Below the pieces are notes generated by a model. The model was not told the origin of the DNA. It saw nothing but the letters and a program-made list of their open reading frames with translations, and ran no database searches. From Brumimicrobium glaciale (GTDB lineage Bacteria; Bacteroidota; Bacteroidia; Flavobacteriales_D; Crocinitomicaceae), in contig NZ_SETE01000005.1 in assembly GCF_004152935.1 (NCBI RefSeq), forward strand, positions 124,001-188,000: a DNA stretch of 64,000 nt, given 5' to 3'. The position numbers and the translations under genes are program-made. Shown in pieces: positions 19,364-24,875 of this stretch. Each line of letters opens with the position of its first letter. The stretch's first letter is position 1.

Positions 19364-20068
19364 TTAAGCAGCCGGTGAACCTCTAATTTCAGTAACGCCA
19401 ATTTGAAGGGCGTTCATTTTTAACTGTCGATAATTATAGTGGTGTTTTATAGGTCGAATTAAGCCCAAGAAGAAATAATCTTCAATTAGGCATATTTCTT
19501 TTTCAATTAATTGTTGAATGAAGAGTTTTAAATCAGAATGAGTACTCAATTCAGTGTAAACAGTTTCCAATTGAAAATAACTACTTCCCTGGAAAATAGC
19601 GCGTTTTTCAATAGATTCCACAACTCGACTTGTACTCCAATCAACTGACTCAAAAGAACATTTTGAAAATGCGTATTTCGTTAAACCAATTGTATAAGCG
19701 CCGCCTAAATTTGTTTTGCCAACAACAACATCATGATTTTCAAAACAATGAACAACGTCGTGCAAAGTTTGACTCGATACTTGAGGTGTGTCATTTCCTA
19801 AACTAATAACGGCATCATAACCTTTTTCAAAAATAGATTTAAAGGCGTGTTTGAACCGTTCAGCGAAGGTATTTCCATGTTGATGAGATGAATCAATGAT
19901 GAAATAATCGAAATCCGTCTGCTTTACGGTATTGACAATTCGCTTATTAAGATACTTAAACAAATGTACGTTCTTACTGCTCTCCCCTTTTACGAGTTGC
20001 TTGAGCTTGGATTCTTCGTAAGCATTTCGCACGAAAAGTAAAACCGCTATTTTATTTATATCTCTCAA
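19364..20068 (-). CDS. DUF2064 (TIGR04282-type) glycosyltransferase-like protein
   Basis: A 234-residue protein of the DUF2064 family, a GT-A-like nucleotidyl/glycosyl transferase fold. Markers are the RNAYEESKLKQLVKG opening, NTFAERFKHAF, ISLGNDTPQVSS and GKTNLGGAYTIGLTKYAF. The start is TTG at 20068, preceded directly by a stop codon, so no upstream ATG exists. Databases sometimes call the family an arsenosugar transferase; there is no arsenic gene here and I do not adopt that label. It is the first gene of the SusCD operon. A family 2 relative of TIGR04283 type lies at 33440. Confidence 0.75.
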   Translation of the reverse strand: MRDINKIAVLLFVRNAYEESKLKQLVKGESSKNVHLFKYLNKRIVNTVKQTDFDYFIIDSSHQHGNTFAERFKHAFKSIFEKGYDAVISLGNDTPQVSSQTLHDVVHCFENHDVVVGKTNLGGAYTIGLTKYAFSKCSFESVDWSTSRVVESIEKRAIFQGSSYFQLETVYTELSTHSDLKLFIQQLIEKEICLIEDYFFLGLIRPIKHHYNYRQLKMNALQIGVTEIRGSPAA

Positions 20069-20221
20069 TTATGATTCTTATTCTACACCGTAATATAAGT
20101 GAATATCAGTATTATTATTTCATTAGAACAAAAAGATCAAGAAAAGGTTTAAAAATATTGGGGTATCTTTTTAGATATAAATTGAGAGTTACATTTTTTA
20201 ATTCGAAATTGTTCCCCATGC

Positions 20222-20341
20222 ATTTATGACGATATAGGTAAATTGGTTTACGAATCTAAACATATTAAAGGCTTGAATAAAACAGAGCTAGATTTAGAGT
20301 ATCTTGCTACTAATGTCAATTTTCTAAAAAAAATGATCTAA
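20222..20341 (+). pseudogene. C-terminal gene fragment, unknown family
   Basis: A 39-codon stretch reads IYDDIGKLVYESKHIKGLNK then TELDLEYLATNVNFLKKMI before a stop. It looks like real protein, but no start or N-terminus is present. It lies about 80 bp upstream of the first hairpin of the ATPase unit. Confidence 0.35.
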
Positions 20342-20423
20342 AAAATGATATGCACAAAATAGTTATTGGTTAACAAAACAAACATATCAACATCATTTTA
20401 AAGCATTTATAGAAAAACACTAT

Positions 20424-20477
20424 TTCTATACCCAGCCAAAAGTCATGAATAAACCCTACATTTGGCTAAGTATAGAA
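20424..20477. repeat. Hairpin flanking the ATPase gene, upstream copy
   Basis: The left arm TTCTATACCCAGCCAAAAGT (20424-20443) pairs with ACATTTGGCTAAGTATAGAA (20458-20477) with three mismatches around a 14-base loop. The ATG of the ATPase gene begins 5 bases after the right arm. The left arm is identical to that of the downstream hairpin at 21898. Confidence 0.85.
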
Positions 20478-20481
20478 TTTT

Positions 20482-21894
20482 ATGAGAAAGATAATTGGAA
20501 GAGATAATGAACTTAAAACCTTGCAGCGAGCTATTGATTCCGACAGTTCTGAGCTTATTGCCATCTATGGTAGAAGGAGAATCGGAAAGACATTTTTAAT
20601 TCGTGAAGCTTATAAAAAAGAAATAGTTTTTGAAGTATCTGGAATTCCTGATGGAACTTATAAACAGCAGATTTCTAATTTCCATAACAAAATTCTAAAG
20701 AGCTCTAAGAGATTCAAAAAAAGTAAAGAACCTAAAGACTGGCTTGAAGCTTTTTCTTTATTGGAAGAATATATTTCGGGGATTAAAAGCAAGAAAAAGA
20801 AAGTTATCTTTATTGATGAATTGCCTTGGATTCACACTCCTAAATCAAATTTCATTTCCTTATTTGCACATTTTTGGAATGACTACTGCACAAAAAGAGA
20901 CGATTTAGTTGTTGTTATATGTGGTTCTGCAGCTTCCTTTATGATTAACAAAGTTATTAAGGACAAAAAGGGCTTACACAATCGAATCACTTACCCAATC
21001 AGATTATTGCCTTTCAATCTTCATGAAACAGAATTATTCTTGAAGTCTAAAAAAGTTAATTTGAGTAGGTATGATTATTTACAAATCTATATGGCTATTG
21101 GAGGAATTCCACATTATCTCGACAAGATAATTTCAGGTGATAGCGTCGCAACAGCTATTAATAGATTGTGTTTTAAATCCGGTGGAATTTTGGTAGATGA
21201 ATTTGACATCGTTCTTTCCTCTTTATTCGATAATTCATCCAATCATGAGAAAATTGTAGAAGCTTTATCAAAATCAAAAAACGGATTAACAAGAGCAGAA
21301 ATTGTTGCTAATACAAGTCTTAGTTCTGGAGGTACATTGACACGAACAATCAGCGAATTAACTGAATCAGGATTTATTTCAGAATACAAACCATTTGACA
21401 AAGTTTTAAAAGAAACATTGTATCGCTTGTCTGATGAGTATTCTTTGTTTTATTTGAAGTACATAAAAAACAATTCCGATGACAGTTGGACTGCCTTATT
21501 TAACTCACGCAGTTATATTTCTTGGGGTGGATTTGCATTTGAAGCGATATGTTTAAAACATACTCCTCAAATAAAAAAAGCATTAGGAATTGGAGGAATT
21601 AGCTCGAATAGTTCGAGTTGGAAAAATAAGAATGCTCAAATTGATTTGGTAATTGATAGAAGTGACAACTGCATTAATTTATGTGAAATTAAGTTCTCAA
21701 CCTCAGAATACGCAATTAGTAAACAATACAAAGTTTCATTACTCAACAAGAAAAGTGAATTCATAAAAGAACTAACCACTAGAAAAAATATTTTCACCAC
21801 TATGATCACCACTTTTGGAGTAAAAAACAATCAAAATAGCAACAATTCAATCGACAATCAAATCGCTATGGATTGTCTTTTTGAAAAGATTTAA
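20482..21894 (+). CDS. ATPase_2/DUF234 protein: STAND-like ATPase with PD-(D/E)XK-like C-terminus
   Basis: A 470-residue protein. The N-terminal ATPase has Walker A GRRRIGKT (residues 30-37) and Walker B VIFIDELPW, typical of the archaeal-type ATPase family (PF01637). A winged-helix-like region follows (SKSKNGLTRAEIVANTSLSS). The C-terminal DUF234 region ends in AQIDLVIDRSD...CEIKFS; Asp388, Glu402 and Lys404 match the D...ExK core of PD-(D/E)XK nucleases. It may therefore be an ATP-driven nuclease or DNA-binding switch. Two near-identical hairpins lie 4 bp before the start and 3 bp after the stop, which points to a mobile, selfish or self-controlling unit. No partner gene is present. Confidence 0.8.
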   Translation: MRKIIGRDNELKTLQRAIDSDSSELIAIYGRRRIGKTFLIREAYKKEIVFEVSGIPDGTYKQQISNFHNKILKSSKRFKKSKEPKDWLEAFSLLEEYISGIKSKKKKVIFIDELPWIHTPKSNFISLFAHFWNDYCTKRDDLVVVICGSAASFMINKVIKDKKGLHNRITYPIRLLPFNLHETELFLKSKKVNLSRYDYLQIYMAIGGIPHYLDKIISGDSVATAINRLCFKSGGILVDEFDIVLSSLFDNSSNHEKIVEALSKSKNGLTRAEIVANTSLSSGGTLTRTISELTESGFISEYKPFDKVLKETLYRLSDEYSLFYLKYIKNNSDDSWTALFNSRSYISWGGFAFEAICLKHTPQIKKALGIGGISSNSSSWKNKNAQIDLVIDRSDNCINLCEIKFSTSEYAISKQYKVSLLNKKSEFIKELTTRKNIFTTMITTFGVKNNQNSNNSIDNQIAMDCLFEKI

Positions 21895-21897
21895 AAA

Positions 21898-21951
21898 TTC
21901 TATACCCAGCCAAAAGTGATGTTTAAACTATACTTTTGGCTGGATATAGAA
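21898..21951. repeat. Hairpin flanking the ATPase gene, downstream copy
   Basis: The left arm TTCTATACCCAGCCAAAAGT (21898-21917) pairs with ACTTTTGGCTGGATATAGAA (21932-21951) with one mismatch around a 14-base loop. It begins 3 bases after the ATPase stop codon. Without a strong T run it is a weak terminator candidate; the match to the upstream copy suggests another role. Confidence 0.88.
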
Positions 21952-22044
21952 ATCAATGTAGAATAAAGAATCTCCAATGAAAACAAAGTCAATAAACTAT
22001 AAATCAATGTATTGAAACATTAAAAAGATTTAAAAAACTCCTAT

Positions 22045-23814
22045 CTACATAATAACCAACGAATGAACCTCTACTCTTTTATTCGAAACTATTCGAACAG
22101 AATAAGTTCCCTGAGCATATTTATTTGCATCAATAAAATGATTCTTTTCGCCTTGTGGAAACTTCCCTTCATATATAAGCTCCACTCTTCTTCCCATTCC
22201 ATCCACTAATTCTATTAAACCTTCTTCATTTGCATTCGCTTTAACTGGAATTACAGTAATTGCAGAAGCTGGATTTGGATAAACTTCAAGTGATTCTATT
22301 TCTTCATTTTCAAGACTTGCAGCGGCAGCATCAAAAACAGTAAACTTCCAATATCCAGCAGGTGCTGGCATCGGACGTGCAATTGTTTTTCCGGAATTTG
22401 AAGTGGCTTCAATATAATAATGTACATCAACTTCTCCAATTTGAGCAGGAATGAACGCTTGCCAATCCTCATTTCCTATGTCTGTCATTGCAATTGATTG
22501 ATAAGTTCCAGACACTCCTATTTTGTAATAAAGCGTTGCCGACGAAATTCCTGAACGATGAGAAATATAAGCAGTCGCTTGATAAGCATTGAGATTATCA
22601 TACGTATCTCTCAAACGTTGGTGAGAAATCATCAATGGATTTTGAACACCAACAGAATGCGTAATACAATGAATTGCTCCTCCTGATGCAATTAAAGTTT
22701 CCCCAGAATCATAATCTACATTCACACCAACAATGTTATATCCAGGCATTGCTTCTTCCAAAATACGTTGTGCGATGGTGTCATATTCTTCTCTGTAAAA
22801 AGGAACAATTACCGTATTATTGACAAATAGTTGATTCGCATAAGTGCGGTAATGTCCATTATTATCGGGATAAGAACCACTTGTTGAAGGTGGCGCAGGA
22901 ATTCTAATTACACGATAAGGTGTTCCATAAACGGAAGTAAAATTACTCAAGAGGTATTGGAGATTCGCTTCTATTTGTGGTCCATCAGCAACTCCTGCCG
23001 GATATTCACTTACCAAAAGTGTTTCCTCATCTATGAACTTTATCTGCATGTCAATGTGATCAATAGCGTCATAAGGCAAGCGTTCAACTTTTAGGTAACT
23101 CTCAATTCCCATAAAATCATTAAAAATAGCATTGAGATCTTGATCCGTTTTCGGAGTAACTCCATAGTTATTTGAAGCAGCATTTTCATCGAGAATTAAC
23201 TTCGAAGAAACACTTGTTCCAAATCCATCGGTCATATAATTTCCTCCTGTCGCAATCACGTCAGTGGGAGAAGAAGTCATTTGATAAATAGGAATATTTA
23301 AGAAATTAGCATAAGCTTCAGGAGCTTGATTGTCTAACGGTCGTGGACGATTATAAATCCAATCGACTAAAATTAATGAATCGTTCCAATCTTTGTAAAC
23401 TGAGTTGGCTGCATAATCTCGTAACCATATTGAGTTGAAATTATAATCTAGAAAAACCACATTGGTCATAGCAACACCAGCATTTTGCAAAATTGAAGTA
23501 ACGCTATTTTCATTCGGAGTTAGAATCAAAACCTTACATTCGTTTACCGCTGCTGCCACAATTCCTGTCAAAGTTGTTGGATAGTTTTGATCCCAAGCCA
23601 CCAATAAATATTCAATTTCTTCCCACTCAGCCATGGTACGTAAATTCCCAACTGGAGGAGTTGTTGAACCTCGCTCTGGAGAATAATCACTAAATTGATA
23701 GGTTGACATTTGAGCTTTTTCCGCATCAGTTAACCAACGTGGCAAAGATTCCTCTTGTGCTTTAAGTCCATAAAGTGAACAGCAAAGTAAGGCAAGTAAA
23801 ATTAAGTATTTCAT
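22045..23814 (-). CDS. T9SS-secreted peptidyl-arginine/agmatine deiminase-family protein
   Basis: A 589-residue protein with signal peptide MKYLILLALLCCSLYGLKAQ, a PAD_porph-type deiminase domain, a small beta domain and a type A T9SS tail (SLEVYPNPASAITVIPV to the end). The family motifs are present: WLRDYA, GGNYMTDG, AIDHIDMQIKF with the catalytic His, and GGAIHCITHS with Cys383 as nucleophile. The family hydrolyses agmatine to N-carbamoylputrescine or converts protein arginine to citrulline. A secreted form resembles Porphyromonas PPAD in layout. Substrate preference cannot be told. The gene is monocistronic. Confidence 0.9.
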   Translation of the reverse strand: MKYLILLALLCCSLYGLKAQEESLPRWLTDAEKAQMSTYQFSDYSPERGSTTPPVGNLRTMAEWEEIEYLLVAWDQNYPTTLTGIVAAAVNECKVLILTPNENSVTSILQNAGVAMTNVVFLDYNFNSIWLRDYAANSVYKDWNDSLILVDWIYNRPRPLDNQAPEAYANFLNIPIYQMTSSPTDVIATGGNYMTDGFGTSVSSKLILDENAASNNYGVTPKTDQDLNAIFNDFMGIESYLKVERLPYDAIDHIDMQIKFIDEETLLVSEYPAGVADGPQIEANLQYLLSNFTSVYGTPYRVIRIPAPPSTSGSYPDNNGHYRTYANQLFVNNTVIVPFYREEYDTIAQRILEEAMPGYNIVGVNVDYDSGETLIASGGAIHCITHSVGVQNPLMISHQRLRDTYDNLNAYQATAYISHRSGISSATLYYKIGVSGTYQSIAMTDIGNEDWQAFIPAQIGEVDVHYYIEATSNSGKTIARPMPAPAGYWKFTVFDAAAASLENEEIESLEVYPNPASAITVIPVKANANEEGLIELVDGMGRRVELIYEGKFPQGEKNHFIDANKYAQGTYSVRIVSNKRVEVHSLVIM

Positions 23815-23918: not shown

Positions 23919-24875
23919 ATGGAAGATGACAACCTTATAAACGAAAAACACTTTACAAAAGCTCTAAAAAATGGTGTACTCATAGATATTCTAGATGTTG
24001 AAAATGGTTTAAATTGTGATTGTGTCTGTCCTAGTTGTGAAACCCCAGTAGTAGCTTATAATAATCCAAAAAACAAAAACGCTCATCACTTTAAACATCA
24101 CAATAAAAGAGATTGCCGTTTTTACTACGAGACTATGCTACACTATATGGCAAAGGAAATTATAGCTAAAGAACTAAAGTTAAAAGTACCTAAACATGAA
24201 TTTTCTCTTTCAGATTCAGCAAGAGATTATCAATATAATTCAAATAGAATAGCTATTCCATATGAGTCAACTAGCATCTATGAAGTGAATTTTGATACTA
24301 TAGAAGTAGAAAAATATCAAGACGGGATAAAACCAGATTTAATAGGAAAAATAAAAAATAAGGAATTACATATTGAAGTTGCGGTTACTCATTTCATAGA
24401 TGATGAAAAGTTAAGTAAAATAGAGAGAAATGGAGTAACAAGTATAGAAATAGATTTATCTAAATTTGATCGAGAGATTCACGAAAAACAGCTTAAAATT
24501 GCCTTAGATGGAAATATAAAATTAATGAAATGGATAAATAACCAATATATTCAAGACAAAAAGCAACTGGCAGAAGAGAAGAAAATTAAAATTAGAGACT
24601 TTATCTACTCAAAAACCAAAGAAAAACCTGTTTATGGCAGGCAAAACATAATCTATAAATGCCCCTTAACAAAAAGTAAAGAAATATCGAAAAGTAATTG
24701 CTTGTCATGCAGGTTTATGTCTTACGAAAAAGAAACACTGCAAGTCATAAACTGGGAAGATCGTAAAATATATGAAAATAGTTTTATAGGATGCATAGGA
24801 CATGTCAAAAAAGAATTTGATACGATACTTAAATTCAACGGAGTGAAAATAGGTGAAAATAATGCCTTTAATTAA
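23919..24875 (+). CDS. CoiA-like competence/nuclease-family protein
   Basis: A 318-residue protein. A zinc-type CPSCETPVVAYNN motif is followed by AHHFKHH and CRFYYETMLHYMAKEII, as in CoiA-like proteins. The middle has KPDLIGK then ELHIEVAVTHF, resembling the D...E-x-V/K core of a PD-(D/E)XK fold. A second cysteine cluster (CPLTKSKEISKSNCLSC) lies near the C-terminus. CoiA in Gram-positives helps process transforming DNA, but in Bacteroidota many relatives have no link to competence. No competence gene is nearby, so the role is open. Confidence 0.65.
   Translation: MEDDNLINEKHFTKALKNGVLIDILDVENGLNCDCVCPSCETPVVAYNNPKNKNAHHFKHHNKRDCRFYYETMLHYMAKEIIAKELKLKVPKHEFSLSDSARDYQYNSNRIAIPYESTSIYEVNFDTIEVEKYQDGIKPDLIGKIKNKELHIEVAVTHFIDDEKLSKIERNGVTSIEIDLSKFDREIHEKQLKIALDGNIKLMKWINNQYIQDKKQLAEEKKIKIRDFIYSKTKEKPVYGRQNIIYKCPLTKSKEISKSNCLSCRFMSYEKETLQVINWEDRKIYENSFIGCIGHVKKEFDTILKFNGVKIGENNAFN

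Follow-up and report, generated by a model that had tools for sequence, protein, structure and literature searches.

A predicted ATPase-nuclease gene of Brumimicrobium glaciale is framed by two palindromes; the arrangement is real, and palindromes of this kind are widespread in the family to which the protein belongs, PDC-S27. Judging from the sequences, it is most likely that the palindromes are read by the product of the gene that they frame, and that the gene is autoregulated. Autoregulation as such is already known, and what appears to be new is that the gene of a candidate defence nuclease carries a bracket which its product would read, an arrangement not found in the searches made. The gene lies in a stretch of 64,000 nucleotides, the whole of which we refer to as the window.

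The bracketed gene and its predicted product

In the preliminary description of this DNA, two hairpins with identical 20-nt left arms and 14-nt loops had been placed around a DUF234 ATPase gene, and all of the measurements hold (Table 1). The shared left arm, TTCTATACCCAGCCAAAAGT, occurs at 20424-20443 and 21898-21917, and the right arms, which had been said to differ by a few bases, are mismatched at 4 of 20 positions. Between the upstream palindrome and the ATG at 20482 lie 4 nt, and the downstream palindrome starts 3 nt after the TAA codon (21892-21894). As single-stranded DNA, both fold far better than shuffled sequences (-10.1 kcal/mol and z -6.1 upstream; -15.8 kcal/mol and z -8.9 downstream), with none of 200 shuffles folding as well as either. 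A search of the whole 4.27-Mb genome for the 20-nt arm with up to three mismatches returned the four half-sites of the window palindromes only, and the reversed control returned nothing. Given that the arm has no further genomic match at this threshold, a dispersed repeat or REP/MITE was excluded.

Table 1. Positions in the window of the two palindromes, the gene and the features within it
Feature	Position	Strand	Remarks
Upstream palindrome (putative proximal operator)	20424..20477		54 nt; arms 20424-20443 and 20458-20477; 14-nt loop
TACATTTG, fits TAnnTTTG	20457..20464	+	within right half of upstream palindrome
ATPase_2/DUF234 gene, PDC-S27 family	20482..21894	+	470 aa
Walker A GRRRIGKT, residues 30-37	20569..20592	+	invariant positions in relatives
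Winged helix domain (predicted), residues 253-316	21238..21429	+	AlphaFold2 model
Putative specificity residues S282, T285, R288	21325..21345	+	covariation; just before or in N-terminal part of recognition helix
PD-(D/E)XK catalytic residues D388, E402, K404	21643..21693	+	conservation
Downstream palindrome	21898..21951		54 nt; 14-nt loop; same orientation as upstream palindrome (direct repeat)

The protein matches the Pfam families ATPase_2 (E 1.7e-21) and DUF234 (E 1e-4, barely past the cut-off); an NCBIfam search with the 470-aa sequence returned no match. By its whole-length match to the PADLOC profile of PDC-S27, a single-gene candidate defence system (E 3.6e-190; residues 1-467 on positions 1-473 of 474), it belongs to that family. 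PMC12988326 describes PDC-S27 as an ATPase fused to PD-(D/E)XK and counts 3503 archaeal and 4562 bacterial systems, and this same fusion is what Pfam, residue conservation and the structural model give for the window protein.

The Walker motifs are near-invariant in an alignment of 124 relatives, with G30, R31-R33, G35, K36 and T37 of Walker A each present in all 124, and the catalytic residues are found in 122 (D388), 124 (E402) and 123 (K404) of them. An AlphaFold2 model built from 11 input sequences (mean pLDDT 90.1, pTM 0.88) comprises an AAA+ domain, a winged helix (helices 253-263, 271-278 and 284-295, strands 299-302 and 313-316, of which 284-295 is the recognition helix) and a C-terminal alpha/beta domain bearing the catalytic residues, the predicted fold being an AAA+ ATPase followed by a winged helix and a PD-(D/E)XK nuclease. 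Foldseek matched the model to STAND/Orc-type ATPases, namely 2qen, a MalT complex, NRC resistosomes, Cdc6/Orc1 and Avs3, and a Phmmer search of solved structures with the single protein as query gave no matches. Pfam, the near-invariant residues, the model and Foldseek thus agree on the Walker ATPase coupled to a D388/E402-x-K404 nuclease-like core that had been read from the letters. The PDC-S27 label suggests that the nuclease has a role in defence.

Adjoining the cassette, at 22045-23814, is a gene for a secreted protein with a Porphyromonas-type peptidyl-arginine deiminase domain, whose orthologues in three congeners are 77-83% identical. At 23919-24875 the window encodes a 318-aa protein with no Pfam or PADLOC match.

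Private palindromes and the residues that would read them

The family is sporadic. Matches at an E-value of at most 1e-3, distant members included, were found in 14 of 59 genomes of relatives, 58 of 395 from the class, 39 of 299 from the order and 38 of 395 from the phylum, the four sets overlapping one another. From 148 non-identical loci that were collected, 126 were kept (at least 33% identity and nearly full length), 5 duplicate proteins were dropped, and the alignment of 124 proteins is made up of the 126 loci minus two with internal stops.

Palindromes were scored as matches minus twice the mismatches. An upstream palindrome scoring at least 11 is located at -200 to +20 in 92 of the 126 relatives (1.8 expected from shuffles), and one scoring at least 13 in 70 of the 126 (none in shuffles), whilst a downstream palindrome is found in 36 of 123 (1.2 expected); palindromes inside the gene were found in none of the 126. 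Because of the excess over shuffles on both flanks, we regard the arrangement as a family trait. Orthologues without flanking palindromes, which the preliminary description had allowed for, are not what close orthologues turned out to be, as these do have them.

The downstream copy is not general in the family; it is frequent in the window's own clade alone. A downstream copy that matches the upstream palindrome of its own locus (score at least 16) is present at 33 of 114 loci, and about three quarters are without one. Such copies occur at 3 of 6 loci that are at least 60% identical to the window, 15 of 21 at 50-60%, 7 of 41 at 45-50% and 8 of 55 at lower identity. At loci at least 50% identical, the count is 18 of 27 by score and 23 of 27 if copies called by eye at L007, L012, L033, L108 and L127 are added. 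The two copies are in direct orientation at 24 of the 33 matched loci and inverted at nine, two of which are ties.

Members on plasmids, phages and viral contigs, which include one from Butyrivibrio (Bacillota), have an upstream palindrome scoring at least 11 in 11 of 17 cases, a count taken without a shuffle control and with two near-duplicates of other members among the 17. Viral scans with single proteins gave no matches and a scan with an alignment as query gave 10 loci; at one of the viral loci, L224, GAGCTATAA palindromes stand on both flanks. The Wolbachia phage WO member (L217) is situated among head genes, with tandem CCGCGG-containing repeats just upstream of position 1489. On contig 3 of the window's genome there is a 45% identical paralogue (L166), upstream of which are several ATAAATACA palindromes, its downstream flank having none; the congener G005 also has this gene (L020, L028), with similar palindromes but broken into two reading frames. 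A distant member is present twice on one contig (L168 and L169), the copies lying 4.8 kb apart with 95% identity over 2060 bases, which is by their sequence a recent tandem duplication. Other long upstream palindromes, for example TTATCGTAAC...GTTACGATAA, are found at the distant members L023, L029 and L031 (22-27% identity), and private palindromes may therefore reach beyond PDC-S27 proper.

Stem letters vary between loci and are concordant within one locus. The score of at least 16 between downstream and upstream copies, seen at the 33 loci above, is reached in 6% of shuffled pairings, and a score of at least 30 is reached at 15 of the 114 loci and in 0.09% of shuffled pairings. The base before GCCAAA is constant in 44 of 45 loci with several such half-sites, and upstream and downstream copies agree in the base before GC at 25 of 26 loci and in the base after GC at all 26.

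These two bases vary together with residues of the winged helix region. In a table of 87 loci with a symmetric GC (37 of the 124 have none and were left out; 11 of the 87 are ambiguous), residue 282 is associated with the base after GC (S or T with C in 51 of 58, N with T in 11 of 12, D or E with G in 10 of 13), and residue 285 with the base before it (T with A in 18 of 21, D with C in 11 of 12, R with G in 6 of 9, and G or N with mixed bases). Over all alignment columns, information is highest at 285 for the base before GC and at 282 for the base after. In the nearest relative, L007 (79% identical), residue 285 is G, and both palindromes carry G where the window has A before GC. Three members from plasmids and viruses were scored, by eye; those from Emticicia (ADGG with GCGG) and Segatella (TSGG with GCC) fit the code and the viral L224 (E before NG, GCT) deviates from it.

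For a phylogenetic null, a tree was built without residues 255-305, the base was simulated along it 300 times, and the columns were ranked. For the base before GC the top two columns are 288 and 285, in that order, for the base after it the top column is 282, and none of the 300 simulations attains the observed values. Residue 282 is above the column-wide 95% limit (z 6.19 versus 5.76), and 285 (z 4.58) and 288 (z 5.34) are under theirs (5.69). Close, non-overlapping pairs with different bases (43 and 27 pairs) were also compared with distance-matched pairs: residue 285 is changed in 79% versus 51%, 288 in 77% versus 52%, and 282 in 78% versus 32%, with the poorly aligned last residue, 470, in top rank and 285, 288 and 282 directly behind it. 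A coevolution test with a 25-residue sliding window gave a weak signal that does not single out the winged helix (best at 46-75, r 0.135, permutation 95% limit 0.118; r 0.083 at 271-295), and the column tests were used in its place. In the model, residues 282, 285 and 288 fall within the opening turns of the recognition helix or immediately precede it. Since residues 282 and 285/288 covary with the bases that flank GC, the gene's own protein very probably reads its palindromes, which gives support to the recognition by its own product that had been surmised from this one locus.

Promoter overlap and probable autorepression

The right half of the upstream palindrome contains a match to TAnnTTTG, which we take to be the consensus of the Bacteroidota -7 box, and the downstream palindrome also contains TACTTTTG, at 21931-21938. 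TAnnTTTG is found at -70 to -5 in 99 of the 124 relatives, with 7.6 expected. It lies +9 to +11 from the dyad in 42 of 86 proximal palindromes on the gene strand and 4 of 86 on the other strand; at distal upstream copies the corresponding counts for the two strands are 5 and 4 of 87, and at downstream copies there is no strand bias (8 of 30 versus 7 of 30). Neighbouring upstream dyads frequently lie 52-54 bp from one another. On sequence grounds, this is the geometry of a promoter-covering operator, and the overlap with the -7 box at a fixed offset points to autorepression. As the palindromes also appear to be read by the gene's own protein, the gene probably controls itself. Autorepression alone leaves the copy after the stop codon unexplained.

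With the -7 box in its right half, only the right arm of the upstream palindrome would be contained in the RNA. "Hairpin" is thus probably the wrong word for this copy, and the evidence better fits a double-stranded operator palindrome. The "autoregulated conflict module" of the preliminary description stands in its first part, in that covariation and the -7 box overlap make the unit look autoregulated; the conflict role is taken from the family label.

We consider it probable that an autorepressing ATPase-nuclease is bound to its own operators and that the nuclease is a conflict effector, which as a whole is the best explanation of the data. What the sequence gives directly is the palindromes, the likeness of those at one locus to each other, the covarying residues and bases, the promoter motif overlapped by the proximal copy and the conserved catalytic residues; from these we infer binding, repression, looping, a trigger, a nuclease target and a defence role. 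The product would be an AAA+ ATPase of STAND/Orc-like type that also carries a winged helix and a PD-(D/E)XK nuclease, and the winged helix would bind, as a symmetric oligomer, to palindromic operators private to this gene. Since the proximal operator overlaps the -7 box, protein bound there would silence its own promoter. Extra upstream copies, often at the spacing given above, and the downstream copy would raise the affinity, with oligomerisation or looping across the gene as the probable means, and these additional sites, one of them behind the gene in the window's clade, may strengthen or sense repression. The nuclease, probably a phage-defence or other conflict effector, would be kept at its own locus until ATP-dependent switching sets it free.

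If so, each PDC-S27 member gains a defined DNA target and a promoter by way of a private operator that can be read from sequence, and such operators predict which protein binds which palindrome. A natural recognition code, comprising three helix positions and two base positions, is on offer, and the system suits the question of whether STAND-like nucleases are restrained by binding to their own gene.

Other readings and known systems

A bolder reading, which we think unlikely, is that of a self-bracketing immune cassette. The nuclease would be silent whilst on both of its own palindromes, which serve as a self tag, and would be freed to cut DNA if the locus were damaged, replaced or titrated during infection. 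The tags would mark a unit that is gained or lost whole, orphan palindromes would be traces of departed units, and the helix code would let paralogues run without crosstalk. With regard to crosstalk, half-site similarity in 50 within-genome pairs is slightly below that of matched pairs and the difference is not significant (P 0.12).

Gain and loss as a unit is allowed by three observations. The first is an empty site in the congener G004, in which the same neighbours (82% and 77% identity) are separated by 228 bp and both gene and palindrome are absent. For the comparison of empty and filled sites that had been proposed, the flanks are too diverged to give an exact join, and a target-site duplication was not seen there. 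Second, nucleotide similarity between the window and L008, a locus in a different context, extends from 20422 to 21949, that is, from palindrome to palindrome. Third, there are orphan palindromes. A scan for C-type palindromes returned 11 sites, spread over 9 of 150 genomes, as opposed to 3 for the reversed control; three are at gene loci, four are gene-less with 18-19 bp stems (two in the window's genome and one each in G023 and G524), and the other four look like chance. A scan for A-type palindromes also returned 11 sites, these spread over 11 of 199 genomes, as opposed to 4 for the control; two are at gene loci, and none of the other nine is convincing, several being terminator-like.

The two orphans of the window's genome are CCGCCAAAACT palindromes of another subtype on contig 3 (L185, 4763-4803 and 7068-7116). 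They lie 2.3 kb apart, enclose three genes, one patatin-like and two short, without an ATPase relic, and would suit a D285-type protein, of which there is none among the two family members found in that genome; an orthologue of the neighbouring gene is absent from the other nine congeners. In two congeners without the gene, G023 and G524, one orphan palindrome occupies the same place (L186, 5153-5203; L187, 4776-4826), close to an ATPase gene of the DUF4143 (PDC-S01-like) type; the gene adjoining the G023 site is present in only 2 of the 5 genomes of its genus. A gene relic was found neither around the orphan palindromes nor at the empty site of G004.

The same observations bear on a minimal mobile element, in which the palindromes would be the ends of a transposable cassette that the ATPase-nuclease, by analogy with TnsC and TnsA, cuts or moves. 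The empty site, the edges of the L008 similarity, the orphans, the members on plasmids and viral contigs, and the resemblance of the ATPase profile to TnsC (E 9.2e-5) all speak in its favour. However, a matching downstream copy is present at a minority of loci only, and the L008 edge may merely reflect constraint, as the two loci are 73% identical. Near-identical copies within a genome were not found among the 50 pairs, which in most searches were drawn from the best four to five matches per genome; the highest protein identity was 60%, which amongst these matches argues against recent copying. No transposase was seen within the bracket, and the site in G004 does not give an exact join. The cassettes are sporadic and in varied genomic contexts, but these observations fall short of demonstrating transposition, and we regard the mobile or selfish unit first suggested as quite unlikely.

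Alternatively, the nuclease could cut its own palindromes, which would then be homing or self-excision sites and not operators. The almost invariant catalytic residues, the reading of both flanks by the same protein and the predominance of direct repeats at matched loci are compatible with this. A nuclease that constitutively cut its own locus would be lethal unless it had a switch, upstream sites alone are present at most loci, and the G004 empty site offers no palindrome for homing, so that such self-targeting is very unlikely.

We attach still less weight to terminators, attenuators or other RNA hairpins, although the palindromes would be very stable as RNA (-15.8 kcal/mol upstream and -26.2 kcal/mol downstream) and the downstream copy begins 3 nt past the stop codon. 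A search for GC-rich stems with a T run behind them gave no terminator-like site at 19900-22500, and the single Rfam match scores 24.3 where the gathering score is 90; the RNA element was dropped as a candidate on these grounds. In addition, the stem letters track the recognition helix of the protein, and the promoter box lies within the upstream copy. Plain terminators were the other outcome that had been considered for these repeats, and the search of 19900-22500 speaks against it. Finally, a replication-initiator-like module, with an Orc1/Cdc6-like winged helix protein and origin-like boxes beside its gene, is highly improbable, since the fold similarity to Cdc6/Orc1 on origin DNA (E 2.4e-8) comes with low TM-scores and is equalled or exceeded by STAND proteins and the archaeal ATPase 2qen, and since the window copy, for all the 52-54 bp spacing of the upstream box arrays, is in a 430-kb contig of the 4.27-Mb genome with ordinary genes adjoining.

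The preferred reading, autorepression through private operators, is not part of the published account of the family in so far as the main text of PMC12988326 goes: palindrom, inverted repeat, autoregulat, operator, hairpin and winged have no occurrences in it, and palindromes such as those at the window locus are not mentioned. In passages of PMC13356809, "palindromic" appears solely within the CRISPR name. Our literature search, which had most subscription papers and preprints outside its reach, found no paper on palindromes at this family, and no described system with such a layout was found, in keeping with the preliminary description.

The window protein resembles known systems in its parts. 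The fold matches to STAND/Orc AAA+ ATPases (2qen, the MalT complex 8bob, Avs3 8dgc, the plant NRC resistosomes and Cdc6/Orc1 2qby) have E-values of 1.6e-13 to 1e-7 at TM-scores of about 0.3-0.5, and to such ATPases the window protein adds a C-terminal PD-(D/E)XK domain and gene-private palindromes. TnsA is the PD-(D/E)XK nuclease partner of TnsC in Tn7-like transposons, which share with the window protein the pairing of an AAA+ ATPase with such a nuclease; a transposase, target-selection gene or end structure, however, was not found at the window locus. In the RAYT transposases with their REP palindromes, and in IS200/IS605, a single gene is placed between palindromes that its product recognises, as would be the case here, but the window palindromes are not dispersed in the genome, and the window protein has no Pfam family of HUH tyrosine transposases.

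Autoregulatory repressors of the MarR/PadR type have a winged helix that binds a palindromic operator over their own promoter. The likeness lies in the winged helix and in the palindrome over the gene's own promoter, the latter a putative one identified by its TAnnTTTG motif, with recognition of the site indicated by sequence covariation; profile matches to MarR/PadR-type structures are not significant (E 0.14-0.68). Unlike these repressors, the window family has its reader fused to an AAA+ ATPase and a nuclease, its operator specificity differs from locus to locus, and, where present, a further copy of the operator follows the gene.
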